From the NCBI GenBank assembly GCA_018648585.1, contig JABGQW010000018.1:1-35362 (forward strand): a stretch of 35,362 nt of DNA, in the 5' to 3' direction. This stretch comes from a bacterium (GTDB lineage: Bacteria; Patescibacteriota; Gracilibacteria; UBA4473). The translations under genes were made by a program, and so were the position numbers. Below the pieces are notes generated by a model that worked only from the letters and a program-made list of their open reading frames with translations, did no database searches and was not told the origin of the DNA. Positions 7,721 through 35,362 of this stretch are shown here, in pieces; the first letter of the stretch is position 1; every line of letters begins with the position of its first letter.

Positions 7721-10700
7721 TCAATTTGGTTTTTTTGGTGACGAAACCGTCACATTTTTTTCGACGGGAACAAAAAATTCCCCGAGCACTTTTTCGTTCA
7801 AAATTTCAAACACCACCGGCTCAGAAATGGAAACCGATCTTTTTGGGCGGAGTGACAGATTTTTTTGCAGCGAGTGAAAATTTCCAAATCGATCGAGCAC
7901 GCCGAGCGTCTCGTGCTGCAAAGAATCCACGAGCGCCACCGCGCCAGAAAATTTTGGTTCGCGTCCGGAAATTTTTTCCCACCGAATTGAGTCCGACAAA
8001 TTCCGATCGAGCGCCTGCACCGCTGAATTTTGGAAAAACTTTTTTGAATCGATTTTTTCTCCGGATAAAATTTCGACCGAATTTTCCCCGCTCGGTGCGA
8101 TTGAAATTTCTGCAACAATCTGATTTTTTGTGTCGCGAATTTCCGTTTTTTGTGGAGAAATTTCGGTCGCCGATTGCACTGAAATTGTGAGATTTTTATT
8201 TTCCAAAATGACGCGTCCCGTCGGCAAAATCGCGGCTGCAAGATTTTTATTTTGATCCAAAATTTCCACATTTCCCTCCGCCGACAATTCCCCAAGTTCA
8301 AACATTCCCGCCGCATCCGTCGTCACCGTTTTTGGCAAAAAAATCTCGCGATCATTTCGTTCACGCGAAAACGAAATTTCAAGATTTTCAATTTTGGACA
8401 ATAATTTTCCCAAAATTCGCCCCTCGCGCTGCGAAACTTCGAGCAATCGAAGCGGCGGCGATTCGAGTGAAATTTCGATCGTCGCAGTCGCCTCGTTTCC
8501 AGACAAATCGGTCACGTGCAAAATGAACGAAACTTTTTCTGGTTTTTCGCGCGCGGGAATTTGAATTTTGAGTGCGCGCTGCGGATTTTGAAAAACTTCG
8601 GGAAATTTTTTCTGATCGGCGGTGTCGAGAATCACCGCTCCGTCAAATTCCCACCACACGCGGTCAATCGCCTGCTCCTCGATCGTGCGCGTCGCGTCAA
8701 TTTCGATCGGTTCTCCAAAATATTCCGTGCGTTTTTTTCCGCGCAACAACGAAATTTGTGGCGCCACCGTGTCGTCCGCCGGCTGCGGATCGTGCAACAA
8801 TTTTTGAACGGAGAAACTCTGATCGCGCCCGTCAAATCCGACAAAAGATCCGTAGTGATTTCCGAGATTTAATTTTTTAAAATACGCGATCGCGGAATCT
8901 TCCGTGGTGAAATGATGCATTTCGTACGTTTCGCCGCCCTCGATCGTGATCGGAGTTTCGTCAAAAAGATCCAGTTGCACTTCGTCATTTTTCCCAAGTT
9001 CGAGCCGCATGTTGTCGATAAAATATCCATTTTCTCGCACTTCGAGTTTTTCTATTTTTCCCGGTTCCGCGTACTGCGCCTCGCCAAAAGTTGCACAAAC
9101 TTCCGCAAAATCCACGATCGTTTCTTCGCCCGCCCGCAAATCAATTTCACGTCGTTCCGCCTGCTGTCCGTCGCGCGGGAGCGTTTTTATGACCATCCGC
9201 GTGTGCGGCGCCACGCCGACAAAAACAGTTTCGGTCGGAAAAAACGGTTTTTCAATTTCTGAATTTTCGCACTCCTCGAGCGTAAAATTTTGAATCGTGT
9301 GAATTTTGGAACCGTACAAAATCGGCGCTCCGGTGATTTTTCGAATCAAACTGGAAACCCGCCGAATATCGTACTTCGTGCCGCGCGGGCGAATTAAAAA
9401 TGCGATTCGTCGCCACTCGTCTGCCGCGCGATCGGAAGAAATTTTTCCTCGTTCGAAAATATGATCCGGACGATCCGAAATCACCCACTCAAAATACTGC
9501 AAATTTTTATTCCACGGCGGCTGAAATTTAAACGTCGTTCCCGACGCATCGACAAAATTTTCTGCAGAAAAAGTTGGCGTAAAATTTCCGACAAATTTTT
9601 CAAATTCCCAAAAAGTGTACCGATCTGTCGGCGCTTCAAACTCGGCGTCTGACTGCTCGGATGTGAAATCAAAATCGACTCGACGTTTGAAATACAACTC
9701 CGATCCGATCGCGTAAAAAATTTCTTTTTCGCCGTCGAGATCCAAATCCGAAATCGTCGCGGTGTACGATTTTCCATCGAGCGACACGGGCGTGATTTCC
9801 TCGGCGAGCGACTGCTCGGAATCGAAAAAATACATTTTCGGTTCGCTGGTCATCCCGCGCGTTTTTTCGAGTTGCTCGTCCACATCGAAATCGGTCGGCA
9901 GCTCCGTCGGAATTTTTGACGGATCGATAAATTCCGTCGACGCGAGCCACGATTTTTGCGCCGGAGCGAGTCGCGCCCAGGTTTCTGGCTGCTCGAAAAA
10001 GTCCGCCAGCGCATTTTTCATTTCGGGAATTTCAAAATCGGAATCCGAATTTTCGAGCGAGTACGCAAGAAATTTTTGAAGCCAATCCACTGATTTTTCA
10101 AGTTCAGGTGAACGCGGATTTTCCCCGGGAGAAAAAAGTGACACGCGCTCAGAATTTGCATTCGAAAAAAAGTTTGAACGATTTTCCAAATTTTCCACGC
10201 GAGAAATTTTCATTTCTTCCGCACCAGAGCCCGAACAATTTTGAAGCGAACCCGCGCCTTTTGCCTGCGCGTCGAGCTGATCGAGAACACAGCTCATTTT
10301 TTGTTGCACCTGATCGATCTGATCGTTCATCATTTCGAGCGCCGGAACAAATTTTGATTCCATTTTTACCGTGACATTCGACGCGTCGAAATCCGCACTC
10401 ACCCGCACGCCGGAAAAATCCTCGGGAAGTTGGTCCGCGGCGTTTTGCATTTTTTTGAAAATCGGTGACAACAAACCGCCAGAAGAAGACGGCGGACTCG
10501 GCAGCGCGGGAGACAGCGCCGCCGAAACAAAATCCAGTGGCATCAACGATGTTCGATTTGTCATCGCCACAACTTGTGTCGCAACTTTCCACTCCGGAAT
10601 CGGCAACAAACCGCGATTGAGCAGACAGAAAAATTTCAACAGCGTTTTTGGAATCACGAGAATTGCCTGTAATTTTTCAAGAAAATCTGGCAACTTCGGC

Positions 10701-13700
10701 GGTTCGATCAATGTCGGCAACGTCGGAATTGACACCGGTGGCGGATTGAAATCGAGGTTGAGCAATTCCGCCGGCAGCGACGGCAAAATCGGAATTTCTG
10801 GAATATTTTGTATAAATCCGGCGAGCCCCGGGATCTGCAACGACGCGAGCAAATCCAAAATCATCTGATCAAAATTTTCGGTGAGAAAAGCTTCGAGCCA
10901 CGCCGGAATCGACGCGGTGAAACTTCCGTCTAAAATTTGTACCACCAGATTTTTGAGCGCGCCAAACGTGATCGAAATTTTCAAAATCTGCTCTCCGAGC
11001 TGTCCCATAAATTGTTCCAGCAAAAAATCCACGCTCTCTCCCGGCAATCCCGGCAATTTCGGAACAGAAAATTCCACCGGCTTGGGCACGATGTCGGGAA
11101 CCGTGATCTGCGTCCCAATCGCAACGCGGCTCAAATCAAATGTCACGTCTGGAATCTGCGGCGCAGGAATCACCGGCAATTTCACTTTTCCGAGCAAAAC
11201 GCGCATCAGCCACTCCTCCATCGTCCCACGATTGACGGGACACGTTCCGCAATCTTTTGTAAATTGGCGAAAAATATCAGGAATACTTTCCCAAAGTTTG
11301 TACATACTTTCCAGATTTTGTTCGAATTGTTGCCATTTTGAAACCGAGCGTTTGTTCGTTTTGATCCAATTTTCCCAGTACTCCGTGAGAAAAAAATTTG
11401 TTTCTTCGATTTGTTTGAAAAGTTTTTTAAATTCTTGTGGCAGCTCCTGGATTCGTTCGCCCGTCTCGCGGTACGATTCGATCGCCTGCACATTTTTGTC
11501 CACGGCAACCATCATTTCTTCCACTTTGTCGATAAAAACATCGACCGCGAGCAGCTGTTTCATCAATTCTTTCGCCGCCATTTTTCGCGCAAACTCAATT
11601 CCTTCATTTTTCATTTCGCGCAAATCCGGTTTTTCCAATTTTCGTTTTTCTTTTTCTTCCGCGAGTTTTTTCTTTTTTTCTTTTTTCAAATTTTCCCGCT
11701 CGGCTTTCCGTTCCGCGCGAGATTTTTTAATATTTTCTTTTTCTGATTCGGACGCTGCGAATGAAATTTTGAGCGCGGCGATCCGCTCCCACTCGGCAGA
11801 AATCTGTGTTTCTAACTTTTCAGAATTTTCCAAATCCTCCGTCGCCACCGCCACGGCCTGCTCCGCCGTCGTCGCCGCCAGGGAAATTGCGGACTGCGCG
11901 CTGGCGAGCAAAGTTTGTGCAGAATCGCGGAGCATCGACGTTTCGTCTGCATTTATTTTCGACGAAAATTCGGACAAAATTTCCGCAAGTGCCTCCACCG
12001 ATTCGCCCGCTTCGTCTAAATTATCCACCGAACGCGCGGCCTGATCCGCCGAATTTTCAACTGATTTTTCTGCCGATTGCAGTTGTTTTTCTGCCGAGGC
12101 GGTCAACGATTTTTTGGTGGAAATTTCGGAAGTTTTTTCCGCCGTGGAAATTGTGGTTTGAGCGATTTTCAATTTTTTTTCTGGCGCCGCAACCGCGTCC
12201 AAACTTTGTTTCGCGTCGAGCAGCGTGTTGAAAAATTCCGTGTAAAATTGCGCGCGCGTTTCAATTTTTTTGAGCTGAATCAGCGTGTCGAGTCCGATCA
12301 AATTCGTCGATTCTTCGCAAATTCCGTCCGCAGTTTCTTCGCCCGCGTCCCATTTTCCTTCGGCGACCAACTCGCACTCCGAGCGTCGAATCGACTTTTT
12401 CGTTTCGTGTTTCCAGATTTGAAAATCTTTTTTCCACGTGCTGAAATCCGATTTTAAAGTTTGAATTTGTTCGATCGAAAATTGTGGGTACGGAATCGCC
12501 ACTTCTCGTTTTTTGATTTGAACAAATGGAGAACTTTCGATTTTTGCCAACGAATTTTGAACGCTCGGATCTTCGAGCAATCGGTACCCCGTTTCGTCTG
12601 CGCCATTCGCGCCGCTCGGAGAATTTTGTGTCGCGGATTTTTTCGTTTTTGGAAACGCCGGCAACACCATTTCAAAACTCGGCAATCGAATATTCGAAAA
12701 CTCGCGCATCTGCTTCTGCACCCACGTCGTGATAATATCCGCGGCCGCAATTTGTTTGTTTTTCAGCTCCGCTTTGTTGCGCGGAATAAACGATCCCAGG
12801 TTTTCCCCGCCCGCGGCAAACATCGGCTGCAAAGATTTTCGTGATTCCTGCGCCGCCAAATCGAGATCGAGAAAATTCCCCGGACACGCGCCCAAAAGTT
12901 CGAGCAGCGGCGGAACGACAACAAAACACGTCGACGGATCGGGAAATGGAACGCCCGTCGCAATCATCGTGGGATTCGTCACATTTGGATTCAAACAAAA
13001 TCCGAGCGCAACCTGCGCCGTCGTCGTCGGCATCACGTACAATCGAAACTGCGAAGTCGGCATCGGTCCCGCACCAACAAATGGCGGTGTCGCGCCCACC
13101 CACAAAACGGGAGTGCCCGGCAGCGGCGGCATCGGAAACGAAATCGGCGGCAAATACAACGACTGCGCCCCCGGTGCGAGAAACGCGTACGACGGAATCG
13201 GCAACCCGCAGCCACTTCCGCACGAACTTTGATTCAACGATTCGTCGATGTCCGCCGTCTGGTAGTGCACCGGAATTCCATCAGAATTATTCGAAAAACC
13301 CTGCAGCGCAGAAACGATGTCCGCTGCCTGCGCTTCCGCATCGAAATCAGAGGGGAAATTTTCGCCAAACGCGTCGACAATTTTTCTCGTGTGCGTTTCT
13401 GAAATAATCGAACCGGGCGAATCTTCTGTCGCGTCCGAACTTTTTCCTGTCGTCGGAAAACTCCGCGGCGGATCATCGGAAAGAAACTGAATCAACTTTT
13501 TTTCGTCGTCGATTTCCCACGCCACCGCGATGTCGTCGATCCCGTCGTTGCCAGAAAAATCGTACGCAGAAAACGTGATCGGCGGAACCGAAGTCGCAGA
13601 AAATTCCCAGGAAAATGTTGTTCGAGTGCGCAGCGGAATTTCTGAAATTCCGAGCAAAAATCCGTTTCGTCCCGCAGTAAATTTCAAATCAGCATTTGAA

Positions 13701-16700
13701 AGATCGACCGAAATCGAATCCGCGTTCAAATTCATCCCGACAAAATCTGGAATCCAGAGCGTAAAATCTTCGAGTTTTTCCGTGGAAAAAATTTCAAGTT
13801 TCGCTTCGAGCGTGTCGCCCGGTTCGATCGTCGTTTTTGCGTTGGAAAGTTCGAGTGAAAACTGCGCGTCAAATTTTTTATTTTCAGAAATCCGCGCGAA
13901 ATTTCGTTCTGCAATTTGTTGAATTTCGTCGGTGAACGTGGAATTTTCCACGCCATCGAAACTCGCCAAAATCGTCGAAAGTTGTGGGAAACTTCGGCGG
14001 CCAAAATAATCTTCGTCCAAGTTTTGTTGCGCCGCAAAATCGTAATTTTCTTCAATTTTTTCAAACGACGGCGCAAACTGATCGAGTCGCTGCGCGGCGA
14101 AAAATCCGTTGGCATCGACGTCAAATCCGCTCGGTTCGTCCGCCGGGAGTTCGCGACCGTACGCGAAATGCAGCGTGTTGGTTTCGTCCAAAATTACAAG
14201 ATCTTGAAATTTGTCGCCGTTGAGTTGTGCGACGACAATTTTTAAAATTTCGTTTTCGAGCCCGAGATTTATTTTTTCACGAGAAAATTTTCCGTTGAAA
14301 TCACGGTGAAAAATAAGTTCGCCCGCGTCGTTGACCTGGATCAGCCAGAGCAATTCCCCGCGCGAATTTGGGTACACCGCCGCGTCGCGCACGCCGTCTT
14401 CAAAACGGAGAATCGGTCCCATGTCGCGAAAATTGTCGAGTTCGTGCATCGAGTGGTACAGCGCGAAAATATTTTTTCCCACGCGTGTCAAAATTTCTGC
14501 GCGCGCATCTCGATTTACATCCGCGATCAAAATTTGGTCAATCGCACCGGCCGAACTTTTCCAGAGTGGCACGCCCAAATCCGGAGAAATCCCCAGCGAC
14601 GATTTTGTGTTTTCTGTTTGAACCGACAAACTCGGATCGCCGAGCAAAATCACCGCGTCGCTCGCACCCCACTGTGTCGCGCGTCCGATCGACGCTCCCG
14701 CGGAAAAAAGTGGTCCCGGTTTCCACGCCGATTCCCAGCCGACCGACCGATCCGTGTCCACATCTTCCGCGGAAAACTGCGGGCCACCGAGCGACCGATT
14801 TTGAAGTTCTGTCAGTTTTTTTGAAAAAATTCCCACGCCCGATTCCCCCGCCGTCGACGCGCCCGTCCAAATTTTTTGGAGCGAAACGTCGGGATCCGTT
14901 GCCAAAATTTCGATCGCGTCGCTCAAAATTTCAGTGGAAAATTCGTCAACAATTTTTGTCTCGAAATTTTCGAGATGAAATTCGAGTTCACCGATTTTTT
15001 TGCTGCGAAAAAGAACCGTCCATTTCAAAATTGATTTTTCGATCGGGTACAACGAAACTTCATTCGACGCAAAATCTAGTCCCCCGCCGTGCCGCAGTGA
15101 AAAAAGATTTTCACCCTGAAATTGCAGCGTCCCGTCCGAAATTTCGAAATCAGAAATCTCCGACGCGGGAGAAAAATACACGCCCGATTTTGTGCGCATT
15201 TTTGCCCCGACAAAAAGTGACGGCGGTTCTGAAAAAATCAGCCGCGCGCGCGCCAATTTCCCACCACTCGCGACAAAATTTGTGGAGAAAAAATCGTCCG
15301 GAAAAAAGATCGGATTCGCCGCCTGCACCACCGCCTGGGCAGAAATTTGACCGAGCAACCGCGGAGCGTTGGGATTCGCGATCAGCGTCGCGACCGCCTG
15401 CGATTCGCCGTCGAACAAAAATCGCGAGCCCAAATTTGGAGCGTCCAATTTTCCGCCCGGAAATCCGAGCAGCATCGTCAATTGTGATTTCGGAGAAAGT
15501 GTTTGAAAATCGCTGCGCGCCAAAACCCGCGTCACTTCAAATTCAAATGTCGCCGGCAAAATATTTTGATCGGAAACACTCGCCACGAGAAATCCTTTTC
15601 CCGTCTGTCCGTTTTCAAAAATATTCGCGGTTCCTTCGCCCGAAAAAATCGGAACGTCCGCCGGATCGAGCACGACAAAATCAGAAAATTGTTCCGCCTG
15701 CGAATCAGAAATTTCGTCGTCGAGAAAACTTTTGATGCTGAAATCGTCGTCGCCGATCACGCCGAGATCGACCAAATCTGTTTTTGCCGCGGACGAAATT
15801 TTTTCTGCCGGATTGAGCACCAACGAAATTTTTTGATCGAAATCCGGAACCAAATTTCCAAACCGATCGACGACGCGAAACGACAAATGCAGCGGATCGG
15901 TCGACGCGGAATTGAGTGTTTTTTGGTCGGCGGATATTTCAATTTTCGCGGGATCGCCCGGCGCAATGTCAAACTCGAACGCGTGCTCGACAAATCCCAA
16001 ACTTTTCAGTGTGATCGAAGTTTTTCCCGCACGCTCGCCGGCGAAAAATTCAAATTCGCCCGTTCCATTTTTGAGCGTGAAATTTTGTGGAAAAATTCCC
16101 ACATCCGCGGGTTCAATTTTGAGCGAAACCGGATAATTTCCACGCAGCAGATTTCCGGCTGGATCGACCGCCCGAACGGAAACTTTTTGTGGAGTCGCCG
16201 TTCCCGCTGGAATCAAATCGGGAGAAAATTCGGTTTCGAATGTCGGATTTTTAATGATGAAAAATTCGGTGGAAAATTTTTGAGCGGGCAAAATTTCGGT
16301 GCTCGCCGTCAATTTTTCAGGAGAAAGTTTTTGAGTCGCGGCGTCCGCGGAAATTTTTTCTGCCGGAGAAATTAATGAGTCGCGCAGATTTTGAAAAATG
16401 TTCGGCTCCGAACTTTTTTGTTCGCCTTTTTCTGCATTTTTTGTGTTTGAAAATTTTTCCGGCACTCGAACGCGAACCGATTTTGGCCCGTCGATATTTT
16501 GGATTTCCAGCCCCGCGCCGCGCCACTGGATCGTCCCGTCGTGCGCCGGAATCGGATTTCCAAATTGATCCTGCACCGATCCAGAAACCGTGATCCACGC
16601 GCCACCGAGCACCAAATCTTGCGCGTCAGAATCGAGCGAAATTTTCGCGGGCAAATCCGGAACGATGTCGAAAAATATTTTTTCGGGCGGCAGCATCGTC

Positions 16701-19700
16701 TGCGGATCCGCGGGCGAAATTTGAATTTCTGCCTCGCCAGATTTTTTCCCGGGAAAAAAGAGAATCGACGCGCGCGCGTCAGAAATTTCTGCCGTTCCGT
16801 CGTCGGAAAAAGTCCCCCACTCCGATTCAAATTTCAAAACTTCTCCATCATTTTTTCGAGAAATTTCGTCCTCCAAATTCTGCACCACCACGTCGATTTT
16901 CATCCCGTCCCAGTCGTCCGCGACGATTTCAGATTTTTCAGAAAATGCTTCGATTTTTTGTGTCGTGACGCGCACGTCCAATTTTTGCGGAGAAATTTCG
17001 AGCGCAGAAAATTCGAGCGAAAACCAGCCGCCCACGTCGTCCGTTTTGGGAACGAGGAAAAAATCCGCCGTCCCAAATTTCGCAGTCGCAGACTCCCCCG
17101 GGCTGATCGAAAAAAGTCGCAGCGCGTCCGAACCGATTGTTTTGAGGGAAATTTTTGTGGAAAAATCTGTCGTCAAAATGTCGCCATTTTCGTCCAAAAG
17201 TTCGACCGCAATTTTTTGCGGAACCGTGTCTCCCGCAGAAATTTTCAATTTTTCTGGCGACACGCGAATCGCCACCGGAACTGGAATTTCTCCGTGCGCC
17301 GACACCGATTGAAACGGATTTTTGAAATCGTCAAAATTTGAACTCAAACCCCCAAGTTGGTCTGGAATAATCGTGGAAAGTTTTCCGAGAAAATCCGGCA
17401 AATCGCTCAGCCACGGGATCAAACACTGCGTCGGCCACTCGATCAAACTCGCGTTCTCGCACGCACCTTTCGAAATTTTGTTCGGATCGTCGTCAGAATT
17501 TTGTCCCAAAATATCGCTCGCAAATTCGCCGCCCAAAAACTCGATCGCCTCCTCGCTCTGCCCGAGATTGAACATTTGTTCGGAAAGTTGCGCCGCCCGG
17601 AACGTGTTTGTCGGAAGCTCGCTCCCGCGCTCGAACGCCACTCCGACGCTGCCACCAGGGATCGTGTCCGATTCTTTTCCGATGATTTCAATAATTTCGT
17701 AGCCGTGGAAATCCGGATTTTTCAAAACCGATCGCCCCGTCGCATCGTCAGAAAGTGCCGCGATCAAAACTTCGATATTTTTGGTTTCCAAGTCCTCGCC
17801 GAGCCACTGGATCGCATCGATCACTTCGTCAAAACCGAGTTCGGAAAACACGTCGTCGAAAACGGTTTCGGCAATCGTCGCGCCCATTTTGAATTTTTTC
17901 GCGTGAGAAAATTTTCCAAATCCGCAGTCGCGATCGTACGAAATCGAAACGTCCGCGTCGCCTGAAATCGTCGCGGCAACGTCAAAATATTCGCAGTCGT
18001 CGTCAAATCCCGCCACGACATCCCACGCCGAAACAATCGTCCCAAAATCATCGATCGCGGTTTCGAGCGTTTCCAGATTTTCTTGATTCGTCGCGATCTG
18101 CGTCAGCAACTCGGATTGAAAAGTCGGCAAATCGCCGCCGGTGTCCGTGATTGCGTCGTCAAAATTTTGAAATTCGAGCAGCACATCCGTCTCGAGCTGA
18201 TTCGCGTCGGCGATCGTGGAGATCAAACTTGCCGTGATCGCGAGCGCGTTGACCGCAGAATATTTTGTTGAAATTGTGTCAGAAATTTCGGTTTCGGCCA
18301 GATTCAAATTTGTTTCGAGTGCAGAAATTCCGGCAGTTTTTTCGTCAAAAAGTTCGGGCAATTCGATCGTCTGAATTTTCAAAACTCGAAATTTGAATGC
18401 GAGCAAATTTTCTCGCAGCCGTTCCAATTTTTCGTTGAAATCGGGAAATTGTGCGGACAAATCCGTCGAGGAATTTTTTTGAGAAATCAGCAAATCCAAC
18501 GCAATTTCTTCAAAATTGAGCGCCGAAATATAATCTGTTTTGTACGCCGAAGTGAAACTCTGCGCGGCAATTTTTTCGGCCTGAATTTCGGATTTTTGTT
18601 GCTGCAAAAAACTCAAACTCACGTACGAAATCACGCGGTTTTGAAAAATGGAATCCGTCGCGTCGAGCACGTTTTCGAGACTGGAAAATTGCGGTTCCAA
18701 AATCGTGGAAAAATCCGACAAATTTTCATCGAGTTCTGTTTCGAGCGCAGAAATTTCAGTGGAAAAATCCGTGGAAAAATTTTCGAGCGCGTTGCCGCTG
18801 GCGACGGAAATTGAATTTTTCAAATTGTCGTTCGTGGCGATCAAACACGTTTCGAGATTGTTCGCGATCGTCGTGGTGAAATTGTACGTCGCGCACCCGC
18901 CGCCGCTCCAAGTCGTGCACGCCGCAGCGCGCGCGGAATCGAAACACGTTTGAATTGCAAAATTTCCCGTTGAAATTTCGTCGGAAAATTCGGTGCTGCT
19001 GGCCGGAAATTGTGCGGTGAAATTTTCGGTACCGACACGAAATCGTTTCAAAAGATCCGTGCGCGGATTCAAAAAATTCATTTGAAATTCCCACTCCGTT
19101 CCAATTTCAGGAAGTTCGCCGAGAAAAATCGTGCCGCCCCACCCGCTCGAATTCTGCGCAGAAACGGGAAAAGTTTGTCCCGGACCGCCGCTCGTGACAT
19201 TTCCGCTCGCATCAATTTGCACGGAAACATCGCCGATCTGCGCGAGTAAATTTGTGTCATTTTCGCGATCAGAATCGCTCGCATAAATTTTGAGAAAATT
19301 TTCTTCCGCCGCATTTTCAACAAATTTCAAAAAAAGTTTCGGCACCGCCGCCGTGTCCCAGCCGGTGATTTGTGAAAAATCAAAAACGTACGGATCGTAC
19401 TCGTACTCCCACGTTTCGCCGATCTCCGGAACGGAATCCAGCACGATCGATCCGCCCCAGCCGCTGGAATTTTGCGCCGCGATCGAAAAAATTCCCGCGC
19501 CGCCCGAAACATCGCCCGTCGTGGCGAGCAGAATCGGAAGCTCCGCGCCAGAATTATTCGGATCTTCGATTTTTCCCCAGATTTTCAAAAAAGTCGAACC
19601 CACAGAAAAAACCGTCTGCAAATAAATTTCCGGAAACTGCGTCGTGTTCCAGCCGGTGATCTGCGAATAATCCGTCGCGTGGCGATCGACCACCGCCGCG

Positions 19701-21802
19701 GAAATTTCTGATTCCATCGTGCGCCCCGACTCGAGTCCGAAATTTTCAAGTTCGTCGACGAGATTTTCGTTGGAAATTAAATTCGCGTCCTCGACGATGC
19801 CGTTGACTTCCGAAATTTTGGATTTCAAAAGCGCCCAAATTTGTGTTTCAAGATTTTCGTCCGTCAAATTTTGTGGAAAAAATTCGAACAAATCCGGAAA
19901 AACAACGTACTGAAATTGATCGCCCAAATCGTAAAATGAAAATCCGCGCGGATCGTCCACCGGAATCGAATTTGTCGACATTTCTGAAAGTTGTGTTTGA
20001 ATCGTTTCGATTCGCGGTTCGTCGTGTTTCATCAGCGACGAGAATGTTTTTGTTTCTCCCGCTTTTTCTTCCAAAACGAGAATCTGCGAACAGCCGCTCG
20101 CGCCACGAAATCCGGCGAAAACTTCGCGCGTTCCCGCGATGTCAAAAACCGGACTCGTCGCACCAAAATGTTCCCACGCGCCCGCCAGCCGATGAATCGA
20201 ATTGTACGGCGGCGCCGGCGAAACGTAGCACGTTCCGTTTCGGGTTAAAACACACGGCCACGTGTCCCACTCCGATCCGGTGTCGCAGTCGCCGTTCGAC
20301 ATTTCAAAAGTGTCCGAATTGATGTCCGTGTTCATCGCGCAGCAGCCCTCGAAAATATCTGCTTTTTGATCTTTTGGTTGCGTGTCGTCGCCGTCCCAGT
20401 CGACGCAATCTTCTTCCGGACGAGAAAGTTCTGGATCGGCGGTGGAGAAATTGTACGAGCGATTTGCCTCGACCATTTGTGCGATTGGAAAGTCTGTCGT
20501 CCGCGGCGTTCCGCGCAGCAACGTGCAATCTTCGGCGCTGTCCATTTCGGAGCGGCGAATTCCATTCCAGTACAAATCTTTTTCGTACCGGCGCGCCACA
20601 GCAAAAAATGGAGGAATCGGCAGCGGAGTCGCGTACGCAAATTTTTCTTTTGTCGGCACGATCAAATCTTTGTCCAAGTTCTGCGTTTCAACATAATTCC
20701 AGAGCGTGTCTTCGATCGCATCGTTCGCATTTTTCAAAAGTTCCGCCGCCCACTGATCTTTCCGCGCGACGAGGGAAAATGTCGTGTCCACGTCCGACGG
20801 CTGCCAGCGTCCCGTGCGCAAAATCCACGTGTTGAATTCTTCGATTCGGTTTCTCGCTGCTTCGAAATATCGTTTTGTCAAATTGTCGATCACGCCTTTT
20901 GCGTGCACGTCCGGAATTCCGCCGAACGAAACCGCGGTCGACTCGGTTGGCCGCAATTCTTCATCCAAAATTTCTGGCGGAACCAATTCTTCGAGATCAA
21001 TGTCGCCAAAAAGTTCCTGCGCCCAGTGTTTGTTGAAACGCAAATACATAATGTCGTCGACGTGATCGATCCAATTTTGGTACTGCTGCAATAATTCTGG
21101 CGAAAGTCCCTCGCGCTGCCGCGGCAAATCGACGAACAAAACTTTTTTTGGAAACTCAGTTTTTTCCTCGTGGACGAGATGATTTCGCTGCAAAAATTGC
21201 AAAATTTCGTGCGCGCGCGCGTCGTCCGAATCCGCGTCCGATCGAATCACGCCGTGCCAAATTTCTGGTTCGTTGTCGCCAGACTGCCAGACAAATTGAG
21301 ATTTTTCAAAATCCCACTCGTAATTTTTATTCTCGAAATCGACGTACGGAAAAATCGTCGGCCAACTCCGTCCATTTTTGTCGACCACGGGAAATGGAAC
21401 ATCACCGATCAAAACTGTTCCGATCAACTGCGACCGATTGTCGTTTTCGATTCCAGAGAAAAAAAGATGCGCGTTTCCCTCGGCAATTTCGAAAACATCC
21501 GCATCCTCCGGCACCGGAATCAAAACGACACGCGCATTTAATTTTTTTTGAACGTCCATCGCGTACCGCTCGATCGCCGTGAAAAGTTCGCCGCGATCCA
21601 GCAACGAATTGGCAACGAGCACCGAAACAATTTTTACACGTTCGATTTCTGGCGGCGATTGAAATGAAATTTCCGCATCGGGCGCACTTTCCCACGGCCA
21701 AGAAAACGCGAGCGCCGTCGGCGAAAACGCACTGAAACACAACGAAAAAAGAGCGAGCGCGCTCGTAATTTTTTTTCTTAAATTTTTACGCCGAAAAATC
21801 AT
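7721..21802 (-). CDS. Giant secreted multidomain surface protein (4693 aa)
   Basis: The ATG at 21802 is chosen over a TTG one codon earlier. Residues 1-34 form a Sec signal peptide (basic start, hydrophobic core, ALA before FSWPW). Residues about 45-230 weakly recall C25 gingipain-like folds (LIGDVPFP, PYVDF). An acidic DWDGDD cysteine patch lies near 465-495 and two tandem about 98-aa repeats at 712-908. About 920-1270 is mainly helical. Ig-like/invasin-type beta units run from about 1512 to 2130. FG-GAP-like motifs lie near 2424-2560 and 4020-4040. A DUF11-like unit lies near 2645, a Pro-rich stretch at 2870-2970, a long coiled coil at about 3150-3520 and a Pro/Leu-rich segment at 3540-3785. 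The end has beta-sandwich repeats (PQISLL, LSGNEATATI). No LPXTG motif or C-terminal membrane anchor is visible. A role in attachment to other cells is inferred from the architecture only. Confidence 0.85.
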   Translation of the reverse strand: MIFRRKNLRKKITSALALFSLCFSAFSPTALAFSWPWESAPDAEISFQSPPEIERVKIVSVLVANSLLDRGELFTAIERYAMDVQKKLNARVVLIPVPEDADVFEIAEGNAHLFFSGIENDNRSQLIGTVLIGDVPFPVVDKNGRSWPTIFPYVDFENKNYEWDFEKSQFVWQSGDNEPEIWHGVIRSDADSDDARAHEILQFLQRNHLVHEEKTEFPKKVLFVDLPRQREGLSPELLQQYQNWIDHVDDIMYLRFNKHWAQELFGDIDLEELVPPEILDEELRPTESTAVSFGGIPDVHAKGVIDNLTKRYFEAARNRIEEFNTWILRTGRWQPSDVDTTFSLVARKDQWAAELLKNANDAIEDTLWNYVETQNLDKDLIVPTKEKFAYATPLPIPPFFAVARRYEKDLYWNGIRRSEMDSAEDCTLLRGTPRTTDFPIAQMVEANRSYNFSTADPELSRPEEDCVDWDGDDTQPKDQKADIFEGCCAMNTDINSDTFEMSNGDCDTGSEWDTWPCVLTRNGTCYVSPAPPYNSIHRLAGAWEHFGATSPVFDIAGTREVFAGFRGASGCSQILVLEEKAGETKTFSSLMKHDEPRIETIQTQLSEMSTNSIPVDDPRGFSFYDLGDQFQYVVFPDLFEFFPQNLTDENLETQIWALLKSKISEVNGIVEDANLISNENLVDELENFGLESGRTMESEISAAVVDRHATDYSQITGWNTTQFPEIYLQTVFSVGSTFLKIWGKIEDPNNSGAELPILLATTGDVSGGAGIFSIAAQNSSGWGGSIVLDSVPEIGETWEYEYDPYVFDFSQITGWDTAAVPKLFLKFVENAAEENFLKIYASDSDRENDTNLLAQIGDVSVQIDASGNVTSGGPGQTFPVSAQNSSGWGGTIFLGELPEIGTEWEFQMNFLNPRTDLLKRFRVGTENFTAQFPASSTEFSDEISTGNFAIQTCFDSARAAACTTWSGGGCATYNFTTTIANNLETCLIATNDNLKNSISVASGNALENFSTDFSTEISALETELDENLSDFSTILEPQFSSLENVLDATDSIFQNRVISYVSLSFLQQQKSEIQAEKIAAQSFTSAYKTDYISALNFEEIALDLLISQKNSSTDLSAQFPDFNEKLERLRENLLAFKFRVLKIQTIELPELFDEKTAGISALETNLNLAETEISDTISTKYSAVNALAITASLISTIADANQLETDVLLEFQNFDDAITDTGGDLPTFQSELLTQIATNQENLETLETAIDDFGTIVSAWDVVAGFDDDCEYFDVAATISGDADVSISYDRDCGFGKFSHAKKFKMGATIAETVFDDVFSELGFDEVIDAIQWLGEDLETKNIEVLIAALSDDATGRSVLKNPDFHGYEIIEIIGKESDTIPGGSVGVAFERGSELPTNTFRAAQLSEQMFNLGQSEEAIEFLGGEFASDILGQNSDDDPNKISKGACENASLIEWPTQCLIPWLSDLPDFLGKLSTIIPDQLGGLSSNFDDFKNPFQSVSAHGEIPVPVAIRVSPEKLKISAGDTVPQKIAVELLDENGDILTTDFSTKISLKTIGSDALRLFSISPGESATAKFGTADFFLVPKTDDVGGWFSLEFSALEISPQKLDVRVTTQKIEAFSEKSEIVADDWDGMKIDVVVQNLEDEISRKNDGEVLKFESEWGTFSDDGTAEISDARASILFFPGKKSGEAEIQISPADPQTMLPPEKIFFDIVPDLPAKISLDSDAQDLVLGGAWITVSGSVQDQFGNPIPAHDGTIQWRGAGLEIQNIDGPKSVRVRVPEKFSNTKNAEKGEQKSSEPNIFQNLRDSLISPAEKISADAATQKLSPEKLTASTEILPAQKFSTEFFIIKNPTFETEFSPDLIPAGTATPQKVSVRAVDPAGNLLRGNYPVSLKIEPADVGIFPQNFTLKNGTGEFEFFAGERAGKTSITLKSLGFVEHAFEFDIAPGDPAKIEISADQKTLNSASTDPLHLSFRVVDRFGNLVPDFDQKISLVLNPAEKISSAAKTDLVDLGVIGDDDFSIKSFLDDEISDSQAEQFSDFVVLDPADVPIFSGEGTANIFENGQTGKGFLVASVSDQNILPATFEFEVTRVLARSDFQTLSPKSQLTMLLGFPGGKLDAPNLGSRFLFDGESQAVATLIANPNAPRLLGQISAQAVVQAANPIFFPDDFFSTNFVASGGKLARARLIFSEPPSLFVGAKMRTKSGVYFSPASEISDFEISDGTLQFQGENLFSLRHGGGLDFASNEVSLYPIEKSILKWTVLFRSKKIGELEFHLENFETKIVDEFSTEILSDAIEILATDPDVSLQKIWTGASTAGESGVGIFSKKLTELQNRSLGGPQFSAEDVDTDRSVGWESAWKPGPLFSAGASIGRATQWGASDAVILLGDPSLSVQTENTKSSLGISPDLGVPLWKSSAGAIDQILIADVNRDARAEILTRVGKNIFALYHSMHELDNFRDMGPILRFEDGVRDAAVYPNSRGELLWLIQVNDAGELIFHRDFNGKFSREKINLGLENEILKIVVAQLNGDKFQDLVILDETNTLHFAYGRELPADEPSGFDVDANGFFAAQRLDQFAPSFEKIEENYDFAAQQNLDEDYFGRRSFPQLSTILASFDGVENSTFTDEIQQIAERNFARISENKKFDAQFSLELSNAKTTIEPGDTLEAKLEIFSTEKLEDFTLWIPDFVGMNLNADSISVDLSNADLKFTAGRNGFLLGISEIPLRTRTTFSWEFSATSVPPITFSAYDFSGNDGIDDIAVAWEIDDEKKLIQFLSDDPPRSFPTTGKSSDATEDSPGSIISETHTRKIVDAFGENFPSDFDAEAQAADIVSALQGFSNNSDGIPVHYQTADIDESLNQSSCGSGCGLPIPSYAFLAPGAQSLYLPPISFPMPPLPGTPVLWVGATPPFVGAGPMPTSQFRLYVMPTTTAQVALGFCLNPNVTNPTMIATGVPFPDPSTCFVVVPPLLELLGACPGNFLDLDLAAQESRKSLQPMFAAGGENLGSFIPRNKAELKNKQIAAADIITTWVQKQMREFSNIRLPSFEMVLPAFPKTKKSATQNSPSGANGADETGYRLLEDPSVQNSLAKIESSPFVQIKKREVAIPYPQFSIEQIQTLKSDFSTWKKDFQIWKHETKKSIRRSECELVAEGKWDAGEETADGICEESTNLIGLDTLIQLKKIETRAQFYTEFFNTLLDAKQSLDAVAAPEKKLKIAQTTISTAEKTSEISTKKSLTASAEKQLQSAEKSVENSADQAARSVDNLDEAGESVEALAEILSEFSSKINADETSMLRDSAQTLLASAQSAISLAATTAEQAVAVATEDLENSEKLETQISAEWERIAALKISFAASESEKENIKKSRAERKAERENLKKEKKKKLAEEKEKRKLEKPDLREMKNEGIEFARKMAAKELMKQLLAVDVFIDKVEEMMVAVDKNVQAIESYRETGERIQELPQEFKKLFKQIEETNFFLTEYWENWIKTNKRSVSKWQQFEQNLESMYKLWESIPDIFRQFTKDCGTCPVNRGTMEEWLMRVLLGKVKLPVIPAPQIPDVTFDLSRVAIGTQITVPDIVPKPVEFSVPKLPGLPGESVDFLLEQFMGQLGEQILKISITFGALKNLVVQILDGSFTASIPAWLEAFLTENFDQMILDLLASLQIPGLAGFIQNIPEIPILPSLPAELLNLDFNPPPVSIPTLPTLIEPPKLPDFLEKLQAILVIPKTLLKFFCLLNRGLLPIPEWKVATQVVAMTNRTSLMPLDFVSAALSPALPSPPSSSGGLLSPIFKKMQNAADQLPEDFSGVRVSADFDASNVTVKMESKFVPALEMMNDQIDQVQQKMSCVLDQLDAQAKGAGSLQNCSGSGAEEMKISRVENLENRSNFFSNANSERVSLFSPGENPRSPELEKSVDWLQKFLAYSLENSDSDFEIPEMKNALADFFEQPETWARLAPAQKSWLASTEFIDPSKIPTELPTDFDVDEQLEKTRGMTSEPKMYFFDSEQSLAEEITPVSLDGKSYTATISDLDLDGEKEIFYAIGSELYFKRRVDFDFTSEQSDAEFEAPTDRYTFWEFEKFVGNFTPTFSAENFVDASGTTFKFQPPWNKNLQYFEWVISDRPDHIFERGKISSDRAADEWRRIAFLIRPRGTKYDIRRVSSLIRKITGAPILYGSKIHTIQNFTLEECENSEIEKPFFPTETVFVGVAPHTRMVIKTLPRDGQQAERREIDLRAGEETIVDFAEVCATFGEAQYAEPGKIEKLEVRENGYFIDNMRLELGKNDEVQLDLFDETPITIEGGETYEMHHFTTEDSAIAYFKKLNLGNHYGSFVGFDGRDQSFSVQKLLHDPQPADDTVAPQISLLRGKKRTEYFGEPIEIDATRTIEEQAIDRVWWEFDGAVILDTADQKKFPEVFQNPQRALKIQIPAREKPEKVSFILHVTDLSGNEATATIEISLESPPLRLLEVSQREGRILGKLLSKIENLEISFSRERNDREIFLPKTVTTDAAGMFELGELSAEGNVEILDQNKNLAAAILPTGRVILENKNLTISVQSATEISPQKTEIRDTKNQIVAEISIAPSGENSVEILSGEKIDSKKFFQNSAVQALDRNLSDSIRWEKISGREPKFSGAVALVDSLQHETLGVLDRFGNFHSLQKNLSLRPKRSVSISEPVVFEILNEKVLGEFFVPVEKNVTVSSPKKPN
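19079..19669 (-). repeat. Two tandem ~98-aa repeats inside the giant protein
   Basis: Residues 712-808 and 809-908 align along their whole length. Both begin with (Y/F)SQITGW(N/D)T and share the block QNSSGWGG followed by PEIGxxWE(Y/F). The DNA copies have diverged, so the duplication is old at the nucleotide level but conserved in the protein. Each unit looks like an all-beta module of unknown family. Confidence 0.8.
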
Positions 21803-21828
21803 CAAATTTTGTGTGTTTTGTCCTGTCA

Positions 21829-32335: not shown

Positions 32336-32363
32336 AACTCTCAACTCTGAACTCTAAACTTTC
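32336..32363. repeat. Four tandem heptamers (AACTCTN type)
   Basis: AACTCTC, AACTCTG, AACTCTA and AACTTTC follow one another without gaps. The last unit overlaps the TGA stop codon of the nucleotidyltransferase (32362-32364). The array and the nearby palindrome fill most of this 171-nt gap, which holds no gene. Confidence 0.75.
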
Positions 32364-33312
32364 AACGCTCCGCACGAACCTTTGTTCCCGCTCGCACCAA
32401 CTTTTGATTCAAATCCAAACCAGAAAGATCGCAATTCTGATCGATCACCGAACGCGAAATAATGCAGTTTTCGAGCCGCGCACCGGGGTACACGATCGTA
32501 TCGTGCAAATGACAATTTTTGACCGTTGCTCCGTCGCCGAGAAAATTTTTTCCGGAAAATGTGTTTTTAAATTCCGAAACATTTTTGCCACGAGAAACTG
32601 ATTTTTTTTGCAATTTTTTGTGCGCGTCGAGGTACGTTTCAAAACTTCCGATGTCGAACCATTCGCCGCCGACGGGAACCGCGGAAATTTGGAAATTTTT
32701 TCGCAAAAGTTCGGGGAAAATTCCGCCGAGCGCGTCCGGAAATTTTTTGGAAAAATCGCAGAGAATCGGCAACAAATTTTTTCCGAGTGAAAAAAATCCA
32801 GTCAACACGAGTTTGGATTTTGGATTTTCTGGTTTTTCTTCGAATCCCACGACTCGCTTCCCGTCGCGCTCCACGACGCCAAACTTTTTTGCTTCGTGCA
32901 AATTTGAAACTTCGCGCACGGCGATTTTGGATTCATTTTCCGAACAAAAAAGTTGTTCGATCAAAAGTTCTGGCAGCAAATTATCTCCCGCCAAAATCAA
33001 AATATTTTCGTCGATTTGAAATGTTTCGATCGCCGCAGAAATCGCGCCCAACGCTCCGAGTTTTTCTCCGTCCGAGTGAGAATCTTCGCAGAAAACGGAA
33101 ACATTTTTTCGTCCAATTTTTTGAAGTTCCGTTTCAAAATCCGCGGCAAATTTCGAATTCGTCAGCAACACCGTGGAAATATCGTTCGGCAATTTTTCCA
33201 AAATATGCGCCAAAATTGTTTTCCCATCCAGCAGCAGCAACGGCTTCGCGTGTTTTTCGGACAGCGGCCAGAGCCGCGTCGCAAATCCACCAGCCAAAAT
33301 CAACGCTTTCAT
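32362..33312 (-). CDS. Sugar-1-phosphate nucleotidyltransferase with left-handed beta-helix tail
   Basis: This enzyme family couples a sugar 1-phosphate with an NTP to give an NDP-sugar for glycans. The 316-aa protein has the nucleotidyltransferase core (about 1-230). It shows LILAGGFATRLWPLSEKHAKPLL at the start, the metal-binding AGDN (about 108-111), GFEEKPENPKS and the WFDIGSFETYLDAHKK block. A C-terminal segment (about 245-310) has hexapeptide-like turns (GDGATVKNC, VYPGARLENCII), forming a short left-handed beta-helix. This layout fits COG1208-type mannose-1-phosphate guanylyltransferase or RmlA-like thymidylyltransferases. The sequence does not tell me the sugar or base, so no symbol is given. 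It could feed surface glycans, but no glycosyltransferase is adjacent. Confidence 0.88.
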   Translation of the reverse strand: MKALILAGGFATRLWPLSEKHAKPLLLLDGKTILAHILEKLPNDISTVLLTNSKFAADFETELQKIGRKNVSVFCEDSHSDGEKLGALGAISAAIETFQIDENILILAGDNLLPELLIEQLFCSENESKIAVREVSNLHEAKKFGVVERDGKRVVGFEEKPENPKSKLVLTGFFSLGKNLLPILCDFSKKFPDALGGIFPELLRKNFQISAVPVGGEWFDIGSFETYLDAHKKLQKKSVSRGKNVSEFKNTFSGKNFLGDGATVKNCHLHDTIVYPGARLENCIISRSVIDQNCDLSGLDLNQKLVRAGTKVRAER

Positions 33313-33396: not shown

Positions 33397-35319
33397 TCAG
33401 CGGACGCACTCGTAACTCGGTTTGTAATTTTTGTACGAACTAACATTTCCGGCGTCTTTCCAGTCGGTGATGTATTCTCGATCATTAAACAAAACAACAT
33501 CCGTTGTCTCTGGCCAAAATTTCTGGCAGTACTGCAACTTTCGATCCGAATAATAATGTGCACCAGAATATCCGTCAGAATCCGTCATCCACTGTCCATT
33601 TTCGAAATGTTGATTCACTTTTCCGTGCCAAAATGAAACTTTTCGAATGTCGATATTCGTATCAAAAGTTTCCGGAGAAATCGTAATTTCTCGATCGAGC
33701 GAATTATTATTTTCTTTTTCATCGGAAGAAGGTTTCACAAACGCAGTCAACATGTGCGTTCCCACTGGAATGTAAATGTGTGAATTGGCGGGATATTCCA
33801 AAACAGCCGTTTTTTCATTCGCGCTCAAGTAATAATATTTACTCTGAAATGGAGCCCCGTTGATGGCAAATCCCCACTCCAAATTTGTATTTCGCGATGC
33901 ATTTTTGTTGGAAATTTTTAAAGAAAGTTTTACTTCTTGATTTCCGTTTGCATCGTAATTTTCTAATTTTTGAACTTTAAATTCTTCCACTGCAATTTCT
34001 GGCTGTGGAATATTTTGTGGCGAAGACAAACATTTTCCGGCGCTGCAGCCGTACTCACAATCGTGATGCACATTGATCACTCGTCCGTCGTCCGTACACG
34101 TGTACTCTGTCAAAACATCATTTGCTCCACACGAATCTGTGTAATGCGTGATGTAATCATTGATTTTAAAAACCGTTGTTCCATACCCATAAATGTCATC
34201 TCCCATGTCAGATTCTTCACAAATGTAATTGTACGTTGGTTCTTCTGAGACTTTCGGAGACAAATAAAATTGTTTTGTAAAAACATTATTATTTTCACTC
34301 ATTTCATAAATATTGTGCGCAGAATCTGCCATAATTTTTACCGTGTACGTTGCCCCTTCAGAAGAAAATTTAGAATAATCACCAAATCCCACAGAAGAAG
34401 AAATTATGCTGTTTCCAACATATTTCAATCCACGAATATCACTCGCAACTTCTTTTCCAGAAATATCATAAATCATAACTTTCGCTGCAAATTCTTCGTT
34501 CATTTCCAATCCCTCTGTCAAAACATCAAAACGAATCATTAATCCACGTTCGGTCGGATTTTCTGAAATTTCAACACTCTCAATGGATAAATCTTTGTAT
34601 GTTGGCGCCTCAGAAATACATTTTCCAGCGCTGCAGCCGTACTCACAATCGTGATGCACGTTGATCACACGATGATCATCCGTACACGTGTACTCTGTCA
34701 AAACATCATTCGCTCCACAAAAATCCGTGTAGTACGTCATGGAATCGTTGATTTTGAAAACCGTTGTTCCGACTCCGTACATATCATCTCCGCCATCAGA
34801 TTCCTGACAAATATAATTGTACGCTGGTTCTTCTTCCGGCGTCGCTTCCCCCAAAAATATTTGTGGCGTAACTTCAATTTCTATTTTCGTTGTGTTGTTT
34901 CCTTTATTTTCAAAAAACATACTGGGATTCACGTACGCTTCGATCGTGTGTTTTCCCGGTGACAAATAGAAATCCGAATATTCGCTTGATTTCTTCAACA
35001 AAAGCTCTGTTTCTGATGGAGAAATATTTCGAATATCGTTAAAAAATCGTTGTCCATCAATTTCAAATCCCCATCCAATCGAAACATTGGTGCGAGCATT
35101 TTGATTTAAAACTTTGAAAGAAAGGTTTACCTTTCGTTCTCCGGATTCATTAAATTCGTCCGGCATTTCAACGAAAACATCTTCTGCGACAACATCATAT
35201 TTTGAAGAATTTTCAACCGAAGTTGTCGATTTTTTGACCGTGTTTTTGTTTTTGAAAACTTCTTCTTTTGTCTCGTAATATAATTTTCGAAGTTCGCGTG
35301 TCGTCACTTTATATCGCAC
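33397..35319 (-). CDS. CARDB-like/Cys-rich module repeat protein (640 aa)
   Basis: Domain order, by residue: a CARDB-like beta-sandwich (about 40-155), a six-cysteine module (about 163-234), a second, different CARDB-like unit (about 240-350), a near-identical six-cysteine module (about 358-430), a third CARDB-like unit resembling the first (about 440-555), and a tail with two cysteines (QYCQKFWPETTDV and a YECV ending). Each cysteine module ends HHDCEYGCSAGKC. Such disulfide-rich modules suggest an exported protein, yet no signal peptide is seen at the N-terminus (MRYKVTTRELRKLYYET). The start is a GTG placed 4 nt after a terminator hairpin, with an in-frame TGA just upstream. The gene may be 5'-truncated, misstarted or a damaged copy. 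The base composition is more AT-rich than the giant gene. Confidence 0.75.
   Translation of the reverse strand: MRYKVTTRELRKLYYETKEEVFKNKNTVKKSTTSVENSSKYDVVAEDVFVEMPDEFNESGERKVNLSFKVLNQNARTNVSIGWGFEIDGQRFFNDIRNISPSETELLLKKSSEYSDFYLSPGKHTIEAYVNPSMFFENKGNNTTKIEIEVTPQIFLGEATPEEEPAYNYICQESDGGDDMYGVGTTVFKINDSMTYYTDFCGANDVLTEYTCTDDHRVINVHHDCEYGCSAGKCISEAPTYKDLSIESVEISENPTERGLMIRFDVLTEGLEMNEEFAAKVMIYDISGKEVASDIRGLKYVGNSIISSSVGFGDYSKFSSEGATYTVKIMADSAHNIYEMSENNNVFTKQFYLSPKVSEEPTYNYICEESDMGDDIYGYGTTVFKINDYITHYTDSCGANDVLTEYTCTDDGRVINVHHDCEYGCSAGKCLSSPQNIPQPEIAVEEFKVQKLENYDANGNQEVKLSLKISNKNASRNTNLEWGFAINGAPFQSKYYYLSANEKTAVLEYPANSHIYIPVGTHMLTAFVKPSSDEKENNNSLDREITISPETFDTNIDIRKVSFWHGKVNQHFENGQWMTDSDGYSGAHYYSDRKLQYCQKFWPETTDVVLFNDREYITDWKDAGNVSSYKNYKPSYECVR
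34029..34247 (-). repeat. Cys-module DNA repeat, copy 2
   Basis: It encodes residues about 358-430 of the 640-aa protein. Long stretches are identical to the copy at 34618-34833, including third-codon positions, which indicates a recent duplication or gene conversion. Confidence 0.9.
34618..34833 (-). repeat. Cys-module DNA repeat, copy 1
   Basis: It encodes residues about 163-234. It differs from copy 2 by scattered substitutions and one codon in length. The six cysteines and the NDVLTEYTCTDD and RVINVHHDCEYGC blocks are the same in both. Confidence 0.9.
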
Positions 35320-35322
35320 GCG

Positions 35323-35347
35323 AAAAACTCAGGAGCTTGCTCCTGAG
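35323..35347 (-). terminator. Terminator-like hairpin upstream of the 640-aa gene
   Basis: A perfect 9-bp stem (35328-35336 with 35339-35347, sequence CTCAGGAGC on the plus strand) is followed on the minus strand by five T. It probably ends a minus-strand gene lying outside the window, or attenuates the 640-aa gene. Confidence 0.65.
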
Positions 35348-35362
35348 ATGGAAAGCGTATAA

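Follow-up and report, generated by a model that had tools for sequence, protein, structure and literature searches.

Introduction

A 640-codon open reading frame (ORF) at the end of a Gracilibacteria contig encodes a modular protein in which two nearly identical six-cysteine modules alternate with CARDB-like units. What kind of protein is this, and does the repeated module account for it? A preliminary description answered with a recently duplicated cysteine module. Its account of the modules and the CARDB-like units was confirmed, but it overlooked an APP_N-type domain at the C-terminus and a repeat that cuts the N-terminus. The two repeated cysteine-rich modules are genuine yet unremarkable, and the surprise of this protein is a C-terminal domain like one in the animal amyloid precursor protein (APP), the precursor known from Alzheimer's disease. 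Sequence profile and predicted structure show that the last 86 residues are homologous to the first domain of APP, its growth-factor-like domain (GFLD). Throughout, the window is the whole stretch of DNA that was analysed, 35,362 nucleotides long.

Layout of the protein and its surroundings

The domains follow one another in the order U1-M1-U2-M2-U3-GFLD (Table 1), with CARDB-like units (U) of ~115 residues each and six-cysteine modules (M). The 640-residue protein first described is present as an ORF, but its start is created by the end of the contig and is not genuine. Only U2 passes the curated cut-off of CARDB (PF07705), and in this the protein is like the surface proteins with CARDB repeats that archaea and bacteria have. 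It is unlike them in that U1 and U3 score below the Pfam cut-off and in the alternation with two near-identical six-cysteine modules. A comparable mix of CARDB, six-cysteine and GFLD-like domains is found in a Kuenenbacteria protein (L009).

Table 1. Coordinates of the features at the contig end, in window positions.
Feature	Residues	Coordinates	Strand	Remarks
ORF of 640 codons plus stop		33397..35319	(-)	modular; GTG start; N-terminus not the true one
U1, CARDB-like unit 1	~41-155	34855..35199	(-)	31% identity to U3; without a Pfam match of its own
M1, six-cysteine module copy 1	163-236	34612..34833	(-)	AlphaFold pLDDT 93
U2, CARDB unit 2	~239-355	34255..34605	(-)	residues 243-349 match Pfam CARDB at 24.1 bits (cut-off 22.7)
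M2, six-cysteine module copy 2	359-432	34024..34245	(-)	repeat of M1
U3, CARDB-like unit 3	~436-553	33661..34014	(-)	resembles U1
APP-GFLD-like domain (PF02177 APP_N), protein C-terminus	555-640	33400..33657	(-)	Pfam, PDB profile and VIA
Terminator-like hairpin and T-run, directly 3' of the stop codon		33340..33373	(-)	read by eye from the sequence
Nucleotidyltransferase gene		32362..33312	(-)	Pfam NTP_transferase E 1e-34
Terminal 55 bases		35308..35362	(.)	hairpin CTCAGGAGCaaGCTCCTGAG and the GTG of the ORF; 53-54 bases common to five other contig ends

U1 and U3 are mutually alike, as had been noticed, with 31% identity over 114 amino acids (BLASTP E 8e-18). No convincing BLASTP match was obtained for U1/U2 or U2/U3 (best E 0.13 and 0.046). 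Synonymous differences between U1 and U3 are near saturation (pS 0.64), and judged by these sites the two units are an old pair. Since U1/U3 are close to saturated and U2 has no convincing match to either, a six-cysteine module and its neighbouring unit were not copied together recently.

The six-cysteine region has no Pfam match, and the whole protein has no NCBIfam or PHROGs match (E <= 0.1). Elsewhere in the window, a 4694-aa ORF (7721-21805) has only weak Pfam matches (FG-GAP_3, Glyco_hydro2_C5), and three more large ORFs on that strand (1803, 851 and 553 aa) carry almost no Pfam signal. An Rfam and tRNA search of the window found nothing.

The C-terminal domain matches the APP GFLD

The Pfam model APP_N (PF02177; cut-off 22.1) scores 25.3 bits (E 2e-5) in the whole protein and 29.9 bits (E 7.7e-7) against the domain alone. 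APP also ranks first when the whole window protein is compared with the PDB by phmmer (E 6e-4). A profile built from 22 prokaryotic relatives recovers vertebrate APP from the PDB at E 1.1e-9 and ten APP/APLP2 sequences at E <= 9.3e-6, and the next, unrelated chain follows only at E 0.35. On their own, 20 of the 22 prokaryotic domains match PF02177 (E <= 0.1). PF02177 itself gave no score in the MGII genomes G397 and G400, though the A2 profile found G397.

The predicted structure agrees. An AlphaFold (AF2) model of the GFLD-like domain was built from 18 rows and has a pLDDT of 85.8 and a pTM of 0.76. In a Foldseek search with this model, all 17 matches at E <= 0.001 are APP/APLP2 (1mwp, E 6e-7), and the next match has E 1.0. 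VIA superposes the predicted model on 1mwp (APP 28-119) with a Z score of 13.4 over 84 of 86 residues, at 1.7 A and 27% identity; the best unrelated chain reaches Z 2.8.

Residues were compared in an alignment of the 22 prokaryotic rows and two APP sequences. Two cysteines are invariant in all 22 rows and align with APP Cys73 and Cys117. G39, N42, G50, W52, D55 and Y72 are common to APP and every prokaryotic row, and H44, G58, P78, T83 and G101 are common to APP and at least 90% of them. The prokaryotic domain is thus like the GFLD of the APP E1 region (PF02177; PDB 1mwp, 3ktm) in its sequence profile, in its predicted fold over 84 residues, in the kept Cys73-Cys117 positions, in the residues G39, N42, H44, G50, W52, D55, G58, Y72 and P78, and in its occurrence in exported proteins.

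It differs in its disulfides. The other two disulfides of the APP GFLD pair as Cys38-Cys62 and Cys98-Cys105. The window copy has two cysteines versus six in APP and lacks counterparts of both these pairs, so it has cysteines for only one of the three APP disulfides. A second cysteine pair is present in one of the 22 rows, the Pacearchaeota protein L015, which has four cysteines, with the pair at the APP Cys98/Cys105 position. The basic character of the APP domain is also not common to all prokaryotic copies.

No other APP-family Pfam match was found in the window protein, where the GFLD-like domain forms the last 86 residues. Unlike APP, the window protein stops there: neither a copper-binding domain nor E2, a membrane segment or A-beta comes after it. 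Because none of the other APP parts follow, the relationship is one of domain homology, not of membership in the APP protein family.

Occurrence and partners of the GFLD-like domain

A profile search of the genome collection with alignment A1 yielded 18 loci from 49 stretches. An earlier scan of the collection with a single sequence had given 17 candidate stretches, none of which was confirmed. Five of the 18 loci are bacterial (Gracilibacteria, Patescibacteria, Kuenenbacteria and two labelled uncultured bacterium). The other 13 are archaeal: twelve are labelled Poseidoniales, Poseidoniaceae, Thalassarchaeum or Euryarchaeota/euryarchaeote, and one is from Pacearchaeota. The prokaryotic relatives are 25-35% identical to APP and 38-58% identical to the window copy.

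Within each group the domain is sparse. It occurs in 2 of 379 genomes of the phylum and 2 of 20 of the family, the window's own genome included in both counts. In the family to which the Poseidoniaceae bin G397 belongs, ten of 145 genomes have it (G397 included), and the only one of 193 genomes in the phylum of the Pacearchaeota bin G398 is G398 itself. At the settings used, none was found in 50,697 phage records, 72,556 plasmid records or viral contigs. This thin scatter suggests gene transfer or frequent loss.

The relatives place the domain beside a beta-lactamase-family hydrolase (L016), PG_binding_1 (L010), CARDB (L009) and fn3 (L008), and tandem GFLD-like domains occur in MGII proteins. 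L016 (4606-6468), from marine group II (MGII), carries the hydrolase together with the GFLD-like domain and, at its C-terminus, a hydrophobic tail that leads into RRR. In L015 (5551-8400), an exported Pacearchaeota protein, a Mucin2_WxxW domain (E 4e-20) adjoins the APP_N-like domain. Both of these domains are best known from animal extracellular proteins.

Export signals were examined in 20 ORFs with the domain, the window ORF among them and one gene present twice, as L003 and L011. In 11 of the 20, the N-terminus has a strongly hydrophobic stretch (>= 1.9). The nine without one include the window and the contig-edge ORFs L021, L022 and L024, and several of the nine have a contig-edge start or a broken frame. 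Seven archaeal ORFs end in a C-terminal hydrophobic tail with RR or RK.

The genome G391 (L004/L007, Candidatus Gracilibacteria) belongs to the same family as the window genome, and its GFLD gene is immediately followed by the nucleotidyltransferase gene that also neighbours the window ORF. Read from its ATG, L007 (5083-6432) begins with a signal-peptide-like segment and then has one in-frame TAG within a charged coiled region, which may be a nonsense change, an error or a site of readthrough.

The six-cysteine module

Thirteen six-cysteine modules were aligned. D11, G20, D35, E45 and the six cysteines are invariant or nearly so, and the eleven modules from outside the window are 25-33% identical to M1. 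In the phylum, 6 of 286 genomes have the module (E <= 1e-3), and in the family 5 of 20 do, counting the window's own genome in each. It stands in one protein with a GFLD-like domain in Kuenenbacteria (L009) and Pacearchaeota (L015). These occurrences bear out the suggestion that modules with similar cysteines exist in exported proteins of Patescibacteria and DPANN. The window copies are like those C-x-DSDGG modules in cysteine spacing and in the D/G/E motif. They are unlike them in being 84% identical to each other as proteins, versus 25-33% for the rest.

Six-cysteine modules commonly come in arrays: relatives in the class carry three modules in one protein (L029) and two in another (L030), at 25-30% identity to M1. 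By eye, L029, L030 and L072 combine six-cysteine modules with S-layer-homology-like repeats.

The AlphaFold model of the module is mostly beta. Pfam gave nothing over the 13 modules but one ShK match (E 0.07). Against the PDB, the best results were E 1.5 with Foldseek, Z 2.5 with VIA among 442 chains and E 0.67 with a profile. For a predicted model, the lack of a convincing PDB match is no proof of a new fold.

Age and extent of the M1/M2 duplication

M1 and M2 form a direct repeat of 223 nt with 84% identical DNA and a spacing of 588. Aligned codon by codon over 74 codons, the copies agree at 187 of 222 bases, the 35 differences are spread out, and the two longest perfect runs are 32 nt each. 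Third codon positions are identical in 51 of 74 cases. Where both copies have the same residue, the same codon is used in 49 of 63 positions, versus 30.2 +/- 3.8 (sd) expected when synonymous codons are drawn independently for each copy at the codon frequencies of ten genes in the window; 49 identical codons were reached in none of 100,000 simulations. The DNA likeness therefore goes beyond protein selection, as had been proposed, and an identity of codons so far above expectation shows the common descent of M1 and M2 at the DNA level.

The synonymous divergence between the copies is dS 0.62 (NG86; bootstrap 0.33-1.23), with dN 0.10. It is uneven, at 0.97 in the first half and 0.39 in the second, which would fit partial conversion, although this is based on few sites. 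The likeness begins within (EEP)xYNYIC and ends sharply after KCxS. Synonymous sites are unsaturated but far from identical, which gives the duplication or conversion a moderate age and does not place it in the very recent past. Of the "recent segmental duplication or conversion" first put forward, the duplication or conversion of the module stands on the excess codon identity. "Recent" and "segmental" are not well supported at this divergence, with homology that covers the module alone and is not shared by its CARDB-like neighbours.

The contig end and the missing start

The window ends in a sequence of 53-55 bases with the perfect hairpin CTCAGGAGCaaGCTCCTGAG, and the same end sequence is found in genome G000 on contigs C1, C3, C7, C17 and C27. 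The window's last 53-54 bases but one have exactly five other occurrences, and all six copies are contig ends. Past the common sequence, the flanking DNA differs among the contigs; at least three of the five others have ORFs that extend into the common sequence. The GTG of the window ORF and its first codons lie inside this end repeat, right after the hairpin with its T-run, and an in-frame stop precedes the GTG by 9 bases. No target-site duplications of 4-9 nt were found at offsets 0-2 when the flanks of the six repeat copies were compared. From these sequences, the contig end is probably the edge of a dispersed repeat, a mobile element missing from the bin, at which assembly stopped.

The window ORF shows no recognisable signal peptide. 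The dispersed repeat at the contig end cuts either the gene or the assembly, and only through it would the signal peptide be absent here.

Alternative explanations

The pair M1/M2 could be an artefact of assembly, given a bin of 32 contigs in which 6 break at a common repeat. This is extremely improbable, as the 35 differences are spread over 222 bases and the frame stays open. The longest identical run, 32 nt, is shorter than the ~55-nt overlap at the contig ends, which makes a collapse or expansion of the repeat in assembly unlikely. It is also quite unlikely that the locus holds only a recent segmental duplication of the cysteine module, with an ordinary repeat-protein tail as its C-terminus. 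The excess codon identity of M1 and M2 would fit such an event. The dS of 0.62 speaks against it, as does homology that is confined to the module, with flanking units that are not in common or are saturated. The C-terminal domain, moreover, has a highly significant independent match by PDB profile, Foldseek and VIA.

For that domain, the likeness to APP might be convergence, in which a small domain of beta-hairpin and helix came to a similar motif with no common ancestry. The domain is short, identity is only ~25-35%, and a branch of 3.2 lies between the APP and prokaryotic rows. Such convergence is nevertheless very unlikely in view of 84 of 86 residues superposed at Z 13.4 (in a predicted model), a profile E value of 1e-9 with no other PDB family near, and an invariant cysteine pair and W/G/D/Y positions in common with APP. 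A move from animals to microbes, by gene transfer or through contaminated bins, is favoured by the domain's known place in animal APP and by its patchy microbial distribution. Yet the relatives occur in several prokaryotic groups, are fused in frame to microbial domains, have archaeal-type C-termini, and are 25-35% identical to APP but 38-58% identical to the window copy, so that we regard this route as unlikely. An ancient animal-to-microbe transfer into a common pool may have taken place. In an unrooted tree of 22 prokaryotic domains and two APP rows, APP is set apart by a branch of 3.2; because the tree is unrooted and this branch very long, it does not tell the direction of transfer.

Origin of the domain

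A tentative proposal, possible but short of probable, is that the GFLD was a prokaryotic extracellular binding domain of marine archaea, DPANN and Patescibacteria that animals acquired and made more stable with two added disulfides. Its ancestral role would be surface recognition or attachment, and animal APP would still use a derived form. The APP family origin has been placed around the rise of animals (PMC3660159), and a word search of the main text of that paper gave no mention of prokaryotes or archaea. No report of a prokaryotic APP_N or GFLD domain was among the open-access literature matches listed, which were often the best rows of longer lists. As the Pfam model scores prokaryotic domains above its cut-off, automatic annotation may already list them.

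Proposed role

Taken together, the window protein is probably an exported modular surface protein with a CARDB/six-cysteine stalk and a terminal extracellular binding module homologous to the APP GFLD. Export to the cell surface is suggested by the export signals found in its relatives. The alternating CARDB-like beta-sandwich units and disulfide-locked six-cysteine modules would form a stiff stalk or rod. Duplication or conversion of the module alone would have supplied the second six-cysteine module and made this stalk longer or stiffer. At its end, the GFLD-like domain would serve as an adhesin tip or targeting module and, going by the architecture, would most likely bind a glycan or a partner surface protein outside the cell. 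Such binding may serve attachment to other cells or matrix, or the placement of attached enzymes.

What is known of APP gives limited guidance on the ligand. Pfam calls the APP GFLD heparin-binding. The net charge of the domain is -1 in the window copy, ranges from -9 to +3 in the 22 rows and is +3/+4 in the two APP rows. With charges from -9 to +3, heparin binding is not carried over from the APP GFLD, and polyanion (heparin) binding as a common property of the prokaryotic domains is not supported by their sequences. APP-contactin binding, as described in PMC8808184 and PMC6638891, goes via the copper-binding domain and not the GFLD, and is therefore no model for the prokaryotic domain.

If it is homologous, the prokaryotic GFLD would either push the beginnings of one APP domain much further back in time or make it a case of gene transfer. 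Its single-disulfide versions are simple material for the study of the basal binding function of the domain. For many ultra-small bacteria and archaea a life attached to other cells is presumed, and the relatives of the GFLD-like domain point to a common kit of extracellular domains in these organisms.
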